Assembly: GCF_013410655.1 (NCBI RefSeq) | Contig: NZ_JACCFP010000001.1 | Coordinates: forward strand, 4,363,501-4,427,500 | Direction of reading: 5' to 3' | Length of the DNA stretch: 64,000 bases | Source: Nocardioides thalensis | GTDB taxonomy: Bacteria; Actinomycetota; Actinomycetes; Propionibacteriales; Nocardioidaceae | Shown: piece after piece, positions 6,921 through 29,837 of the stretch | Layout of the letters: each line of letters starts with the position of its first letter | Numbering within the stretch: position 1 is the stretch's first letter | Translations under genes and position numbers: made by a program | Notes under the pieces: model-generated | What the model was told of the DNA's origin: nothing | What the model saw: the letters and a program-made list of their open reading frames with translations, nothing else | Database searches by the model: none

Positions 6921-7526
6921 TCAGGACGCCTGCTCCCAGGTGTAGCCGTCCGGGTCGGTGAAGGACCCGACGCCGCTGATGGTGATCCGGTGCGGGCCCT
7001 CGGCGTCGGGCACGCCGGCGTCCTTGGCCACCTCGGCGCGGCGCAGGAGCGCGAGCTTCACGCCGCCGTCGGGCGCGAACTCGGCGTACTTCTTGCCGAA
7101 GCTCTTGGCGACCTTCAGGCCGCGGTCGACGTAGAACTCCTTGCTGGCGCGGACGTCCTCGACGCCGATGAGCAGGACGATCGCCTCGATCTCGCCGGTC
7201 GCCGGGCCCTTGTTCTTCTTGCTCTCCGAGACGAACTTCCAGACCGCGCCGTCGGGCGCCTGCACGACCCCGCCGTAGCCCCACATCGACTTGGTGACCG
7301 GCTTGATGACGGTGGCTCCGGCGGCGACGGCGGACTCGAAGTAGCTGTCGGCGTCGGCCGGCTGGGCGACGATCAGCGAGATGCTGTAGCCGCCGAACCC
7401 GGTGGCGGGGTCGGCGGACGCCCGCAGCTGCAGGCGGTCGCCGAGGTCGCCGAACGCCGCGGCGTAGAACTCGCGGGCGGCGTCGACGTCGGGGACGTCG
7501 AGGATCAGTGACTCGATGCTGGGCAT
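6921..7526 (-). CDS. Glyoxalase/bleomycin-resistance (VOC) family protein
   Basis: A 201-residue protein made of two VOC modules: residues about 1-105 (SLILDVPDVDAAREFYAAAF to DGAVWKFVS) and about 115-200 (EAIVLLIGVEDVRASKEFYV to DPDGYTWEQAS). VOC proteins are metal-dependent lyases, isomerases or dioxygenases, or drug-binding proteins. The usual metal-binding His is not obvious in either module, so a catalytic role is uncertain. The ATG at 7524-7526 has an AGGAG site 5 bases ahead. An exact ECF41 sigma promoter lies 38 bp upstream, which ties the gene to the sigma factor encoded at 11052-11960. Confidence 0.85.
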   Translation of the reverse strand: MPSIESLILDVPDVDAAREFYAAAFGDLGDRLQLRASADPATGFGGYSISLIVAQPADADSYFESAVAAGATVIKPVTKSMWGYGGVVQAPDGAVWKFVSESKKNKGPATGEIEAIVLLIGVEDVRASKEFYVDRGLKVAKSFGKKYAEFAPDGGVKLALLRRAEVAKDAGVPDAEGPHRITISGVGSFTDPDGYTWEQAS

Positions 7527-7563: not shown

Positions 7564-7590
7564 GACGTCGGGCGGAGCGGGTTTGTGACA
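7564..7590 (-). promoter_or_regulatory. ECF41-type promoter of the glyoxalase-like gene
   Basis: Read on the minus strand: TGTCACA (7590-7584), a 16-bp spacer, then CGTC (7567-7564). This is an exact match to the promoter motif I know for ECF41 sigma factors. It points at the VOC gene, whose ATG is 38 bp downstream. Confidence 0.8.
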
Positions 7591-7618: not shown

Positions 7619-7990
7619 TCAGTGGACGATCCGCACGAGCACGTCGGCCTCGACGCCCTCCTCGTCCAGTCGCTCGCGCAGCTGCCGCGCCACCTCGTCG
7701 TAGACCATCCGCTGGAGCATCGACGGCCGCACGCGGTTGAGCAGGCCGGCCGCCCGGTTCTCGCGGACCGCCAGCTCGGCGACGTTGTTGATCACGATCG
7801 CGATCTCCCTGGTCGTGCTGGCCGGCGCCTCGTCCCACTCGGCCAGCCGCTCCGCGGAGTCCGCGTCGAGCAGGCTCTCCATCTCGGCCTGCCGGCCGCG
7901 CAGCCGCGCGTTCGACCGCATCAGCACGGCGGAAGAAGCCAGGGCGGCGAGCGCGACGACGACGCCCGCGACGGCGACGAACGTGGTCAC
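7619..7990 (-). CDS. Membrane-anchored hypothetical protein
   Basis: A 123-residue protein with one N-terminal membrane helix (about residues 3-24, TTFVAVAGVVVALAALASSA) and a cytoplasmic or periplasmic helical, charged domain ending in VEADVLVRIVH. I do not recognise the family. A longer frame exists, but the GTG at 7988-7990 overlaps the stop of the upstream SDR gene as GTGA, a clear sign of translational coupling, so I chose it. The pair is probably one operon. Confidence 0.65.
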   Translation of the reverse strand: MTTFVAVAGVVVALAALASSAVLMRSNARLRGRQAEMESLLDADSAERLAEWDEAPASTTREIAIVINNVAELAVRENRAAGLLNRVRPSMLQRMVYDEVARQLRERLDEEGVEADVLVRIVH

Positions 7991-8730
7991 CGACCCCGCT
8001 CCGCGAACCAGTCGTCCCAGGTCTGGGTGCCGACTCGCCACGGCGCCGACGGCACCAGGTGGCCCGCGGTCATCGCCTTGCCGGCCGCGCCGGGCAGCCG
8101 GGCAGAGATCACCTTGCCCGCGCCGCGCGCCTTCCCGACGCGGCTCACGAGCTCGGACATCTCCAGCTGCTCGGGGCCACCCATCTCCAGGGTCTCGCCG
8201 TGGGGCGTCCCCGCCGCCAGCTCGGCCAGCGCCGCGCCCACCTCCCGCGCCGCGACCGGCGCCGAGAGCATCTTCGGCGCCATCACGACCGGCCCGATCT
8301 TCGCCCGCTCGAGCATCTGCTCGGCGAACTCGTGGAACTGGGTCGCCCGCAGGATGGTCGCCGGCCGGCCGCTGTCGCGCACCCGCTGCTCCTGGGCGAC
8401 CTTGCCGTCGTAGTAGCCGAACGGCACCTCGTCGATGCCGACGATGGAGAGCAGCACGTGGTGCGCGACGCCGGCCTGCTCCTCCGCGGCGAGCAGGTTG
8501 TCGCTCGTCGCGGTGAAGAACTCCACGGCCGGCCGCTTGCGGCTGGTCGCGATGTTGAGGCAGTCGATGACGGCGTCCACTCCGTCGAGACGGGCCGCCA
8601 GCCCGTCGCCGCTGAGGACGTCGACCCCGAGGCTGCGCGCGAGCGGGACGACGTCGTGGCCCTGGTCGGTCGCGGCCTCGGCAGCGTGGCGGCCGACGAC
8701 ACCGGTCGCACCGGCGATGGCGATCTTCAT
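7987..8730 (-). CDS. NAD(P)-binding SDR / NmrA-like oxidoreductase
   Basis: A 247-residue atypical short-chain dehydrogenase. IAIAGATGVVGRHAAEAA is the N-terminal GxxGxxG dinucleotide-binding loop, and HHVLLSIVGIDEVPFGYYDG contains the conserved Ser and Tyr region of NmrA/HSCARG-like proteins. Such proteins act as redox sensors or as reductases on quinones and small ketones; the substrate cannot be read from the sequence. It begins 29 bp after the HelR-like stop on the same strand and overlaps the membrane protein gene (GTGA), so all three may be co-transcribed from the helR promoter. Confidence 0.85.
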   Translation of the reverse strand: MKIAIAGATGVVGRHAAEAATDQGHDVVPLARSLGVDVLSGDGLAARLDGVDAVIDCLNIATSRKRPAVEFFTATSDNLLAAEEQAGVAHHVLLSIVGIDEVPFGYYDGKVAQEQRVRDSGRPATILRATQFHEFAEQMLERAKIGPVVMAPKMLSAPVAAREVGAALAELAAGTPHGETLEMGGPEQLEMSELVSRVGKARGAGKVISARLPGAAGKAMTAGHLVPSAPWRVGTQTWDDWFAERGR

Positions 8731-8759: not shown

Positions 8760-10895
8760 TCAGGTGAGCACGACCAGCTGCTGGGTCGCCCGGGTCATGG
8801 CGACGTAGCGGTCGACGCCGCCCTCGATCCCCGCCCCGAGCGCGTCGGGCTCGACCAGGACGACCAGGTCGAACTCCAGGCCCTTGGCCAGCTCCGGCGT
8901 GAGCGACCGCACCCGGTCGGTCTCCCGGTAGGCCGGATCGCCGATCACGCAGGCCGTGCCCTCGAGGTGCTCGTCGAGCCACGCCGCCAGGATCGCGTCG
9001 CGCTCGGACACCGTCGCGTGCACGACGGGTACGCCGGTGCTGCGCACCGATGTCGGGACGTTGGCGTCGGGCAGCACCGCGCGGATGACCGGCTCCGCCT
9101 CGGTCATCACCTCGGCGGGCGTGCGGTAGTTGATGCTCAGCGACGCCATCGTGACGGCGTCGAGGCCGACCCGCGAGAGCCGCTCCTCCCAGCTCTCGAG
9201 GAAGCCGTGCCGGGCCTGCGCGCGGTCGCCCACGATCGTGAAGCTCCGCGACGGGCAGCGCGCCAGCAGCGCCTGCCACTCCGCGTCGGTGAGCTCCTGC
9301 GCCTCGTCGACGACGACGTGGGCGAACGGCCCGGCCAGCAGGTCCGGGTCGGCGGACGGCAGCGCGTCCTCGTCGACGAGCGCCGCACGGATCCCGTCCT
9401 GGCGGAGCTGGGCGAACATGCCCTCCTCGTCGTGACGGATGAGCTCGTCGACGACCTCCTCCATCCGAGCCTCCTCCGCGCGCTGCGCGGCCTCCCGCTG
9501 CCGCGCTCGGCGCGCAGCGTCGGGGTCGCCGAGCCGGAGACGAGCGGCGTCGAGCAGCGGGAGGTCGGAGATCGTCCACGCCCGAGGGTCGTCGCGCTGG
9601 AGGAGGCGTACCTCGTCGGGCGTGAGCCACGGCGCGCACATCCGCAGGTAGGCCGGAACGTCCCACAGGTCGCCGACGACGTCCTCCGGGTCGAGCACCG
9701 GCCAGGACCTGCCGAGCTCCTCCTCGATGCCGCGGTGCGCGAGCAACGCGCGCCGCAGCTGGTCCTCCGGCACGTCGTCCTCGTCCGCGAGCTTGTCGAC
9801 CAGGATGTCGACGAGCGCCTGTCGCACCTGCGCCCGCGCCTCGTTGTGCGGCGTGCCCGGGTCGGGAGCGCCGAACGCCTCGGCCCAGTCGGCCGTGCTG
9901 ACCCAGACGTCGGACCAGGGCGTCTCGACCTCCATGCCCTCCTTCGGCGGCTCCTCGTAGAGCCCGACCGCCGGCTCTATCGCGCCGACCATCGCGGCCG
10001 TTGCCTTCAGCCGGGCCACCTCGGGGTCCGGCTCCTCGCCGAGCTTGTCGCCGCCGGGCACGAGGTCGCGCAGCGTGCAGGTCTGCACGCCCTCCTCCCC
10101 GAGGCTCGGCAGGACGTCGGCGACGTACGAGAGGTAGGGCCGGCTGGGCCCGACGAACAGCACGCCGCCGCGGCGGTGCCCCAACCGCGGGTCGGCGTAG
10201 AGGAGGTACGCCGCCCGGTGCAGCGCGACCACGGTCTTGCCCGTGCCGGGGCCGCCGTCGACGACGAGCGCGCCGCGCGACCCGGCACGGATGATCGCGT
10301 CCTGGTCGGCCTGGATGGTGCCGAGCACGTCGCGCATCCGCTGCGACCGGCTGCTGCCGAGGCTGGCGATGAACGCCGACTGGTCGTCGAGCGCCGCGTG
10401 TCCCTCGAGGCCCTCGGGGGTGAAGACCTCGTCCCAGTAGTCCGTGACCCGGCCCTTGGTCCAGCGGTAGCGCCGCCGGCTCGCCAGCCCCTGCGGGTCG
10501 GCGTGCGTGGCGGCGAAGAACGGCTCTGCCGCGGGCGATCGCCAGTCGACGAGCAGGCGCCGCCCGTCCCGGTCCGTGAGGCCGAGGCGGCCGACGTACA
10601 CCGGCTGCGCGTCGGCGTCGGCCGGGACGACGCGACCCAGGCACAGGTCGAGGGTGTAGCGCCGCAGCGTGCGCAGGCGCGCGGTCAGCCGGTGCACCTC
10701 GAGGTCGCGGTCCATCGCGGCCTGTCCGGTGCCGCCGGCCCGCTTGCGCTCCGTGTCGAGCCTTTCGGTGAGCTCGGCGAGGGTCTCGTCGAGGCTGCGC
10801 TGGATGGCGGCGAAGTGCCGCTCGTCAGCGGCGATGAGGTCGGGGTCGGACTTGGCGTCGAGGTGGTCGGGCAGCGCGAACGCTGAGGTGCTCAC
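8760..10895 (-). CDS. helR: HelD/HelR-type RNA polymerase-associated helicase
   Basis: A 711-residue UvrD/Rep-like superfamily 1 protein. An N-terminal helical arm (about residues 10-70), typical of HelD, inserts into RNA polymerase. GGPGTGKT is the Walker A loop, HVVVDEAQEL the Walker B/DEAD-like motif, ITRATQQLVVLT-type motif VI ends the protein, and ELAKGLEFDLV is motif V. HelD removes stalled RNA polymerase, and the actinobacterial HelR group also displaces rifamycins. The RAE-like palindrome upstream favours HelR. Start GTG at 10893-10895; the open frame runs further, but the region before it holds the regulatory elements. Confidence 0.85.
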   Translation of the reverse strand: MSTSAFALPDHLDAKSDPDLIAADERHFAAIQRSLDETLAELTERLDTERKRAGGTGQAAMDRDLEVHRLTARLRTLRRYTLDLCLGRVVPADADAQPVYVGRLGLTDRDGRRLLVDWRSPAAEPFFAATHADPQGLASRRRYRWTKGRVTDYWDEVFTPEGLEGHAALDDQSAFIASLGSSRSQRMRDVLGTIQADQDAIIRAGSRGALVVDGGPGTGKTVVALHRAAYLLYADPRLGHRRGGVLFVGPSRPYLSYVADVLPSLGEEGVQTCTLRDLVPGGDKLGEEPDPEVARLKATAAMVGAIEPAVGLYEEPPKEGMEVETPWSDVWVSTADWAEAFGAPDPGTPHNEARAQVRQALVDILVDKLADEDDVPEDQLRRALLAHRGIEEELGRSWPVLDPEDVVGDLWDVPAYLRMCAPWLTPDEVRLLQRDDPRAWTISDLPLLDAARLRLGDPDAARRARQREAAQRAEEARMEEVVDELIRHDEEGMFAQLRQDGIRAALVDEDALPSADPDLLAGPFAHVVVDEAQELTDAEWQALLARCPSRSFTIVGDRAQARHGFLESWEERLSRVGLDAVTMASLSINYRTPAEVMTEAEPVIRAVLPDANVPTSVRSTGVPVVHATVSERDAILAAWLDEHLEGTACVIGDPAYRETDRVRSLTPELAKGLEFDLVVLVEPDALGAGIEGGVDRYVAMTRATQQLVVLT

Positions 10896-10964
10896 GAGGG
10901 CATCGGCTCCGGGTCGGTGGGCCGCGGCCGGTGGACCGCGGAGCGGGGATTCTGCCGCCCCGAT

Positions 10965-10985
10965 GGGGCCTTGCCGCAAGGCCCC
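10965..10985. promoter_or_regulatory. Rifamycin-associated element (RAE)-like palindrome
   Basis: GGGGCCTTGC at 10965-10974 and GCAAGGCCCC at 10976-10985 are perfect complements around one central base. From memory the RAE consensus is GGGGCTTGCRGCAAGGCCC; the minus strand here differs from it at one position. The element lies 70 bp before the helR start codon, as expected for rifamycin-inducible genes. Confidence 0.75.
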
Positions 10986-11051: not shown

Positions 11052-11960
11052 TCAGGCCTCGCCGCGGAGGAGCGCGGTGAGGTCGCCGACCGGGCCGAGG
11101 TGGCCGAGCTTGTCGGGGTTGATGACGTTGTGCAGCCGCGCGATCCGTCCGTCCTCGACGTCGATCGTCATCACGCCGAGGAGGGCGCCGTCCGCCCCGC
11201 GGGTGACCAGTGCGGGCTGGCCGTTGGCGACGGCGTGCTCGAGGAGCACGCCGAACCGCTCGCCGGCGCGCATCAGTCCGAGCAGGAACCGCGCGACGGC
11301 GGTCACACCGACCATCGGCTTCTGGATGGCCGGGGCGCGACCGCCGCCGTCGCCCACGAAGACCACGTCGTCGGCCAGGAGCCGCTCCAGGCCGGCCATG
11401 TCGCCGCCGGCGACCGCGGCGATGAACTGCGACGCGAGCCGAGCGCCCTGCTCGCGGGTGGCGTCGAACCGCGGGGTCCCGTCGCTGATGCGCTTCCTCG
11501 CGCGCGCGAAGATCTGCCGACAGTTGGCCTCGCTCTTCTCGACGACGGACGCGATCTCGTCGTACTCGTAGCCGATCACCTCGCGCAGCACGAAGACCGC
11601 GCGCTCCACCGGCGTCAGGGCCTCGAGCAGGACGAGGAACGCGGTCGACACGGTGTCATCGAGCTCGATCCGGTAGGCGGGGTCGAGGTCGTCGTCGTCC
11701 ACGATGGGCTCCGGCAGCCACGGCCCGACGTACTGCTCCCGGCGCACCCGTGCCGAGCGGAGCGTGTCGATGGCGAGCCGCGTCGTCACCGTCGTCGCGT
11801 AGGCCTCGAGGTTGTCGACGCCGTCCGGAGCGCTGCGGTGCAGCCGGAGGAACGCCTCCTGCACCACGTCCTCGGCCTCGACGACGCTGCCGAGCATCCG
11901 GTAGGCGATCGAGAACATCAGCGGCCGCAGCTGGTCGTGCGCCTCGGCGAGCGTCGTCAT
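11052..11960 (-). CDS. ECF41-family RNA polymerase sigma factor with SnoaL-like C-terminus
   Basis: A 302-residue sigma factor. Region 2 (residues about 5-72, with AEDVVQEAFLRLHR) and region 4 (about 107-160, with EIASVVEKSEANCRQIFARARKR) are followed by a SnoaL/NTF2-like domain (about 175-295). All three ECF41 signature motifs are present: WLPEP at 81-85 in the linker, DGGGR at 204-208 and NPDKL at 281-285. In this group the C-terminal domain replaces a separate anti-sigma factor. The divergent epimerase gene carries the cognate promoter, as is usual for the group. The ligand or signal is unknown. Confidence 0.95.
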   Translation of the reverse strand: MTTLAEAHDQLRPLMFSIAYRMLGSVVEAEDVVQEAFLRLHRSAPDGVDNLEAYATTVTTRLAIDTLRSARVRREQYVGPWLPEPIVDDDDLDPAYRIELDDTVSTAFLVLLEALTPVERAVFVLREVIGYEYDEIASVVEKSEANCRQIFARARKRISDGTPRFDATREQGARLASQFIAAVAGGDMAGLERLLADDVVFVGDGGGRAPAIQKPMVGVTAVARFLLGLMRAGERFGVLLEHAVANGQPALVTRGADGALLGVMTIDVEDGRIARLHNVINPDKLGHLGPVGDLTALLRGEA

Positions 11961-12014: not shown

Positions 12015-12041
12015 TGTCACACGCAGGACGGCTGTCCCGTC
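12015..12041 (+). promoter_or_regulatory. ECF41-type promoter of the epimerase gene
   Basis: TGTCACA at 12015-12021, a 16-bp spacer and CGTC at 12038-12041 form an exact ECF41 promoter. It lies 46 bp before the ATG of the epimerase gene, next to the ECF41 sigma gene, the arrangement typical of this sigma group. Confidence 0.88.
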
Positions 12042-12086: not shown

Positions 12087-13034
12087 ATGCGTATCTTCAT
12101 CGCCGGCGCGACCGGCGCCATGGGAACCCGGCTCGTCGGCCTGCTCACCGAGGCGGGCCACGACGTCTTCGGGTCCAGCCGCAACGACACCGGCCGCGCG
12201 GCCGTCGACGCCCTGGGCGCGACGGGCATCGTGATGGACCCGTTCGACGCGGCCAGCGTGGACGCGGCGGTCGCCGAGGCCAAGCCGGACGTGATCGTCC
12301 ACCAGCTCACGGCGCTCAGATCCATGAGCGGCAACCTGAAGAAGTGGGACCGGGACTTCGCGCTGACCAACCGGCTGCGGACCGAGAGCACCGACCACCT
12401 CCTCGCCGCGGCCCGGGCGCACGGCGTTCGCCGCTTCGTCGCCCAGAGCTATGGCGGGCACTGGACCAACCAGCGCACGGGCGGACCGGTCAAGACCGAG
12501 GCCGACCCGCTGATCGACGACCCCGGCAAGGAGGCGCGGCAATCGCTGGCCGCGATCAAGCACGTGGAGAGGGCGACGACCACGGCGCCGGGCATCGAGG
12601 GCATCGTGCTGCGCTACGGCAACTTCTACGGCCCCGGCAACACGATGTCCCGCACGGGCGAGATGGGCGAGGCCGTCCGGAAGGGCAAGTTCCCCGTCGT
12701 CGGCGGCGGCACCGGGGTCTGGTCGTGGCTCCACATCGACGACGGCGCGGCCGCGACGGTGGCCGCGATCGACCGGGCCGCGCCCGGGATCTACAACATC
12801 GTCGACGACGACCCGGCTCCGATGAGCGAGTGGCTGCCCTACCTGGCCGAGCAGCTGGACGGCAAGAAGCCGATGCGGCTGCCGGCATGGCTGGCGCGGC
12901 CGCTGATCGGCGAGTTCGGCCTGGCCCTGATGACCACCGTGCGCGGCTCGTCGAACGCCAAGGCGAAGCGTGAGCTCGGCTGGGCGCCGCACTGGTCCAG
13001 CTGGCGCGAGGGCTTCCGCTCCGGGATCGGCTGA
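12087..13034 (+). CDS. NAD-dependent epimerase/dehydratase family protein
   Basis: A 315-residue extended SDR. IFIAGATGAMGTRLVG gives the GxxGxxG cofactor loop, and LRYGNFYGPGN and WSWLHIDDGAAATVAAI are the substrate-domain motifs. The usual YxxxK active site is replaced at that place by SLAAIK, with Leu where Tyr should be, so it may not use the classic mechanism; many ECF41-linked epimerase-like proteins are of unknown function. The ATG at 12087 follows a strong TAGGAGGAG site. It is preceded by an exact ECF41 promoter. Confidence 0.88.
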   Translation: MRIFIAGATGAMGTRLVGLLTEAGHDVFGSSRNDTGRAAVDALGATGIVMDPFDAASVDAAVAEAKPDVIVHQLTALRSMSGNLKKWDRDFALTNRLRTESTDHLLAAARAHGVRRFVAQSYGGHWTNQRTGGPVKTEADPLIDDPGKEARQSLAAIKHVERATTTAPGIEGIVLRYGNFYGPGNTMSRTGEMGEAVRKGKFPVVGGGTGVWSWLHIDDGAAATVAAIDRAAPGIYNIVDDDPAPMSEWLPYLAEQLDGKKPMRLPAWLARPLIGEFGLALMTTVRGSSNAKAKRELGWAPHWSSWREGFRSGIG

Positions 13035-29381: not shown

Positions 29382-29768
29382 TCACGGCGTCGTCGCGGTC
29401 GTGCGTTGCAGTCGCAGGCGCAGGAAGAGAGCGATCGCCCCCACGCCGGCGAGGACCAACAGCTGGATCCAGTCGCCGTCCCGACCGCCGTCGGCGCGGT
29501 CCGCGAAGTGGTTCTGCGCGTGGAAGAGGTTCGTGAAGACGAAGCCCGCCAGGCCCACCGTCAGCGCGTCGCGGCACCACAGCCCGAGAGCCATCATCAG
29601 TCCGATGGCGATCTGGAAGACGCCCGCGTCGTGCAGGAAGTGCTCGTGGTTGGGCCACCCCGCCCATTCGGCGAAACCTGCTGGGTCCACCCGGCACCAC
29701 ACGCCGACGAGGATCATGGAGGCGGCTCCGAGCAAGACGAGCGCGGAGATGATGCGCATGCGGGCCAT
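29382..29768 (-). CDS. DoxX family membrane protein
   Basis: A 128-residue protein with four hydrophobic segments, including IISALVLLGAASMILVGVWC, FQIAIGLMMALGLWC and LTVGLAGFVFTNLFHAQNHF, the layout of DoxX-like proteins. Family members take part in thiol or oxidative-stress responses or serve as small membrane oxidoreductase subunits; here the role is open. The ATG at 29768 follows an AGAGAGG site. An exact ECF41 promoter lies 43 bp upstream, so this is a likely member of the ECF41 regulon. Confidence 0.82.
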   Translation of the reverse strand: MARMRIISALVLLGAASMILVGVWCRVDPAGFAEWAGWPNHEHFLHDAGVFQIAIGLMMALGLWCRDALTVGLAGFVFTNLFHAQNHFADRADGGRDGDWIQLLVLAGVGAIALFLRLRLQRTTATTP

Positions 29769-29810: not shown

Positions 29811-29837
29811 GACGAGATGACACGGCGATCTGTGACA
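29811..29837 (-). promoter_or_regulatory. ECF41-type promoter of the DoxX gene
   Basis: On the minus strand: TGTCACA (29837-29831), 16-bp spacer, CGTC (29814-29811). It is an exact match and lies 43 bp before the DoxX ATG, the same distance range as the other two copies in the window. Confidence 0.82.

Follow-up and report, generated by a model that had tools for sequence, protein, structure and literature searches.

An ECF41-type promoter core before dispersed genes in Nocardioides, probably shared by several paralogous SnoaL-tailed sigma factors

In this study, we describe three ECF41-type promoters in a window of 64,000 nucleotides of Nocardioides thalensis (the whole stretch of DNA that was analysed), and we propose, with a probability of about 0.65, that their core is common to several paralogous sigma factors, each of which would serve a small, partly dispersed set of targets. 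The sites are exact matches to TGTCACA-N16-CGTC and precede a gene for an epimerase (12015-12041, plus strand, 45 bp before the ATG at 12087), a gene for a VOC/glyoxalase-fold protein (7564-7590, minus strand, 37 bp before the ATG at 7526) and a gene for a small DoxX-like membrane protein (29811-29837, minus strand, 42 bp before the ATG at 29768). The preliminary description had listed these three sites, and a new search recovered all of them as the full set of exact matches in the window, inside 22 kb. Measured from the end of the site to the start codon, the gaps are 37-45 bp, close to the 38-46 bp given before. Even if spacers of 14-18 bp are permitted the count remains three, as against a mean of 0.17 in dinucleotide shuffles of the window. 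Judged from the sequence and its recurrence, the three sites are genuine ECF41-type promoters with a -35 element TGTCACA, a 16-bp spacer and a -10 element CGTC.

The whole genome (4.57 Mb) contains six exact sites and not one match to the reversed control pattern. A genome-wide search near gene starts had been suggested in the preliminary description; it placed five of the six 35-45 bp upstream of a start (37-45 bp in the window), while the sixth lies at 104 bp. Beyond the window, one site (C1:4333730) lies 35 bp upstream of the GTG start of a sigma factor gene that has a ribosome-binding site, a second (C1:4565688) 43 bp upstream of a gene for a 155-aa protein devoid of any Pfam match, and the third (C1:3412772) 104 bp upstream of an MMPL transporter gene; this last site recurs before MMPL homologues in four other genomes. 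Relaxing the -10 element to YGTY adds four sites, among them one 34 bp before a CMD gene that adjoins a further sigma gene, L009. Another of the four stands before a second VOC gene of the genome, with TGTCACA-N16-TGTC at C1:2230295-2230321, 35 bp before the ATG. Two other matches with a TGTC -10 element were not counted: the one at qcrB may by eye overlap the preceding gene at its end, and the one at a TetR gene lies far from the start.

Across 118 genomes of the genus we found 179 exact sites, compared with 26 matches to the reversed control. Among the matches listed, the downstream genes comprise 16 DoxX_2 genes, 14 SnoaL-ECF sigma genes, 11 CMD and 11 NmrA-like genes, 10 epimerases, five MMPL genes, four members of the 155-aa family, three DUF1059 genes and two VOC genes. 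The spacers of recurrent sites mostly differ, and conservation of the core therefore exceeds what recent common descent would leave; because the core returns upstream of the same kinds of gene while the spacers have diverged, we take the sites to be promoters.

The sigma factor encoded in the window (11052-11960, minus strand, 302 aa) carries WLPEP, DGGGR and NPDKL, the signature motifs that had been reported for it. Its Pfam domains are Sigma70_r2, Sigma70_r4_2 and a C-terminal SnoaL_2 tail. Domain layout, WLPEP linker, C-terminal NPDKL and an adjacent COE gene with TGTCACA-n16-CGTC all identify it as ECF41; it passes the NCBIfam cut-offs of both SigJ and SigX4, and its closest solved structure is that of Mycobacterium tuberculosis SigJ (PDB 5xe7, E 2e-46). 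Orthologues with 76-79% identity occur in 9 of the 117 other genomes sampled from the genus. No exact TGTCACA-N16-CGTC site precedes the sigma gene itself. Its immediate neighbours, which were the genes examined, encode a UvrD/HelD-like ATPase (8760-10979; the HelD call was made by eye) and the divergent epimerase. An NmrA-like oxidoreductase gene (7987-8730) lies close by; it was considered as a target and rejected, the 30-bp gap to its upstream gene being free of the motif. Elsewhere, NmrA-like homologues that adjoin other ECF41 genes do have the ECF41 promoter.

The divergent gene encodes an NAD-dependent epimerase/reductase of 315 aa (12087-13034, plus strand; Pfam Epimerase, E 2e-24). The exact site stands before it in nine of the ten orthologues of the genus, the clade of the window sigma comprising ten genomes, and at most of the named loci in other genera an exact site likewise precedes an epimerase beside the sigma gene. 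By this conservation, the divergent epimerase is the sole target that can be firmly linked to the window ECF41. The top NCBIfam match of the epimerase is AvaA7, a 3-diazoavenalumate denitrifying reductase; it extends over the full length and scores 289 bits, below the cut-off of 400, and may give a clue to the kind of substrate on which ECF41 epimerases act.

SigJ-type SnoaL-ECF sigma factors are encoded at no fewer than six loci of this genome, one of which lies in the window. Four of the six are ECF41 proper with WLPEP (the window sigma, L008, L009 and L010) and two, L011 and L012, are devoid of it. The ECF41-proper paralogue at C1:4176610 is 50% identical to the window sigma. L012 is encoded at G000:C1:4333792, about 37-42 kb away, and an exact site precedes its own gene. 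Both WLPEP and NPDKL are absent from L012, which scores 220 bits against the NCBIfam SigJ model, under the cut-off of 271. The ECF56 promoter CCG-N17-CCCTCC does not describe the region before the L012 gene, where TGTCACA-N16-CGTC is found. L012 would act like an ECF41 at the promoter, yet it is not classed as ECF41. Exact sites also precede the sigma genes of some members of the L008 clade; L009-like sigmas adjoin CMD genes, and those of another clade adjoin NmrA-like genes.

The clearest link between a sigma clade, here L012, and a dispersed target is provided by the 155-aa gene. In 7 of 14 homologues an exact site lies 38-54 bp before the gene, with seven different spacers. All seven genomes with the motif (G000, G006, G049, G060, G067, G090 and G106) possess a sigma of the L012 clade, as against none of the seven genomes in which the homologue is motif-less, where the same search was applied (Fisher p 0.0006). 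The gene tree implies about six changes of motif state, and two of the six contrasts fall on well-supported branches. This and the other co-occurrence associations are post hoc, and outside ECF41-bearing genomes they cover the matches listed. A sigma factor that does not have the ECF41 signature motifs thus appears, from its phyletic distribution, to act through the ECF41 core at the dispersed 155-aa target.

The same clade is associated with the promoter of the VOC gene (6921-7526, minus strand, 201 aa; Pfam Glyoxalase, E 6.5e-16). Among the 27 homologues in the genus the motif is confined to two, those of G000 and G106; in both it lies 37 bp before the gene, the spacers are unrelated, and the two genes are not sisters on the tree. 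Both genomes have a sigma of the L012 clade, and no member of this clade was placed in the other 25 genomes with a VOC homologue (p 0.003). For the clade of the window ECF41 the association with the VOC motif gives p 0.10, and in seven other genomes that have this clade together with a VOC homologue the motif is absent. Sigma paralogues that could confound the comparison were placed outside the L012 clade. We consider the VOC promoter more likely to be read by the L012 sigma than by the window ECF41, the association resting on two positive genomes. Conservation of the promoter was discarded as proof, the motif being present in the two homologues just named and a different element in 24. That element, found in 24 of the 27 homologues (L031-L056), is strongly conserved and consists of TCAGGAATCGAGAAGC, about 17 bp and CCTAGCGTC; it lies about 33-61 bp before the matched start, with an ATG a few bases beyond it, and looks like a leaderless promoter of some regulator. 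The VOC gene of the window does not have it.

The third gene (29382-29768, minus strand, 128 aa) had been called DoxX. The site before it is real, but the Pfam match to DoxX (PF07681, E 0.008) reaches 17.2 bits, below the curated cut-off of 23.6, so that the protein is DoxX-like at most. No homologue of this gene was found in the other 117 genomes of the genus. Distant DoxX-like homologues in genomes of 8-9 Mb from another family have TGTCACA-N16-TGTC at 30-32 bp in two cases and farther off in a third, where the start position is ambiguous. Among the matches listed for the genus, nine genomes have sites before DoxX_2 genes, and all nine carry an ECF41 of the L008 clade. A weight matrix of the spacer and extended -10 region was built from 75 ECF41-proper and 17 L012-type promoters. 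It separates the two classes with an AUC of 0.87 in leave-one-out tests, a value reached by none of 200 label permutations, and with 0.71 when whole families are left out; CMD promoters are misclassified. Because of this weakness across families, the matrix serves as supporting evidence. The log-ratio is on the ECF41-proper side for the epimerase (+8.4) and DoxX-like (+6.1) promoters, the latter still scoring +5.6 once DoxX_2 sites are left out of training, and on the L012-type side for the VOC gene (-3.8), the VOC gene of G106 (-8.1) and the MMPL gene (-4.9). The scores favour, without proving it, an ECF41-proper character of the DoxX-like promoter, which would then be read by an ECF41-proper sigma.

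Taken as a model in which binding, transcription, sigma assignment and function are predicted from sequence and homology, several paralogous SnoaL-tailed ECF sigmas would recognise the same core promoter. The window ECF41 would, as homology suggests, have no anti-sigma and have its activity set by the fused SnoaL domain; this domain may hold or release the sigma, probably upon binding of a small ligand (Wecke 2012; PMC8999054), and the active holoenzyme would then initiate transcription just past CGTC. The window ECF41 would drive the divergent epimerase; the L012 sigma would also drive the 155-aa gene and more likely reads the VOC promoter; the DoxX-like promoter may be read by the window ECF41 or by its 50%-identical paralogue. 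The presumed targets are small enzymes and membrane proteins; as a guess, a reactive or hydrophobic compound could be what such a set responds to. The 'redox-type' label given to most of the target genes in the preliminary description is likewise a guess.

The sites could be chance matches in G+C-rich DNA, leaving the one before the epimerase as the only functional site. Some matches elsewhere in the genus do sit within coding sequence and probably arose by chance or from codon use, as in a conserved N17 cluster before in-frame transporter sequence, but this explanation is very improbable for the window: none of 100 dinucleotide shuffles gave three or more sites with spacers of 14-18 bp permitted, the reversed control is empty in the genome and far sparser across the genus, distances to the starts are uniform, and sites recur with differing spacers. 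It had further been claimed that the window ECF41 governs a dispersed regulon of all three genes. The ECF41 type of the sites and the dispersal of the targets hold, whereas common control by this sigma is doubtful, given the phyletic pattern of the VOC promoter and the sharing of the core. A single regulon would agree with the identical core at three sites within 22 kb, with the ECF41-proper character of the DoxX-like site and with a mean of 4.5 exact sites in genomes that have the window clade versus 1.2 in others. These counts, however, are confounded, as genomes with the window clade tend to have other SnoaL-ECF clades; moreover, the VOC homologue is motif-less in seven other genomes with the window clade, and the 155-aa site points to another sigma on the same core. 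The window sigma thus probably does not control all three genes, a single regulon being unlikely, and assignment of every site to it by proximity was rejected in view of the phyletic patterns.

Somewhat less unlikely, though still doubtful, is full cross-talk, in which every SnoaL-ECF paralogue reads every site and specificity lies in the time at which each sigma is activated. The -35 and -10 core is the same for all clades, and the spacer classes separate weakly when families are left out, both points in its favour; the complete agreement between the 155-aa motif and the L012 clade and the leave-one-out AUC with its permutation result speak against it. Cross-recognition among the sigmas would void any assignment to a single one. 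We prefer the shared core with partly separate target sets. Whether this extends to the genus, so that in Nocardioides the ECF41 promoter forms a shared code for at least four SnoaL-ECF clades, including one without the signature motifs, which would jointly constitute a dispersed, cross-connected regulon (epimerase, CMD, NmrA-like, VOC, DoxX-like/DoxX_2, DUF1059, MMPL and the 155-aa family), we regard as an evenly balanced question.

The statement that ECF41 systems are usually described with one adjacent target agrees with most published work. Ecf41/ydfG of Bacillus licheniformis and the ECF41 of Rhodobacter sphaeroides each have one adjacent COE target (Wecke 2012, PMC3426412), as does Sinorhizobium meliloti RpoE9 one adjacent target (PMC6180224); for published ECF41 promoters the listed distance is 31-32 bp, and the genome-wide search of those authors yielded no further regulon members (PMC3426412). 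A reported exception is the ECF41 RpoE10 of Azospirillum, with a role beyond one adjacent gene, in lateral flagella (Dubey 2020, cited in PMC12826043); it differs from the window system in its targets and belongs to another phylum. A review places M. tuberculosis SigJ, the source of the closest structure, in ECF41 (PMC8999054). The window system resembles published ECF41 in sigma architecture, WLPEP, NPDKL, a divergent COE (epimerase) gene, TGTCACA-n16-CGTC and a short distance to the start, and differs in that the same promoter stands before dispersed genes and several paralogous sigmas would share the core. ECF56 SigG1 of Streptomyces tsukubaensis (PMC7730460) is like the L012 clade in its SnoaL_2 tail, the absence of NPDKL and its dispersed targets, and unlike it in having an anti-sigma and another promoter motif, CCG-N17-CCCTCC instead of TGTCACA-N16-CGTC. 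Our search, largely of openly accessible papers, found no paper on a dispersed actinobacterial ECF41 regulon or on a core shared among SnoaL-ECF clades. If true, a shared code would overturn the view of ECF41 as one sigma with one target. ECF41 sigmas are widespread and have no anti-sigma, and conserved dispersed targets together with core-sharing sister sigmas would provide a set of genes on which a guess at the signal could be based. The system would also offer a clean case for studying how far paralogous sigmas remain specific, or overlap, when their promoters are almost the same; specific sigma-promoter pairs are named by the co-occurrence results.

Paired divergent exact sites, spaced 20-45 bp, were seen at two loci elsewhere in the genus. 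At G108:C3:110548-110622 (L083) they precede an ECF41 paralogue and a DoxX_2 gene, and at G050:C1:1383790-1383887 (L097, L165) they face an ECF41 paralogue on one side and an apparent oxidoreductase on the other.
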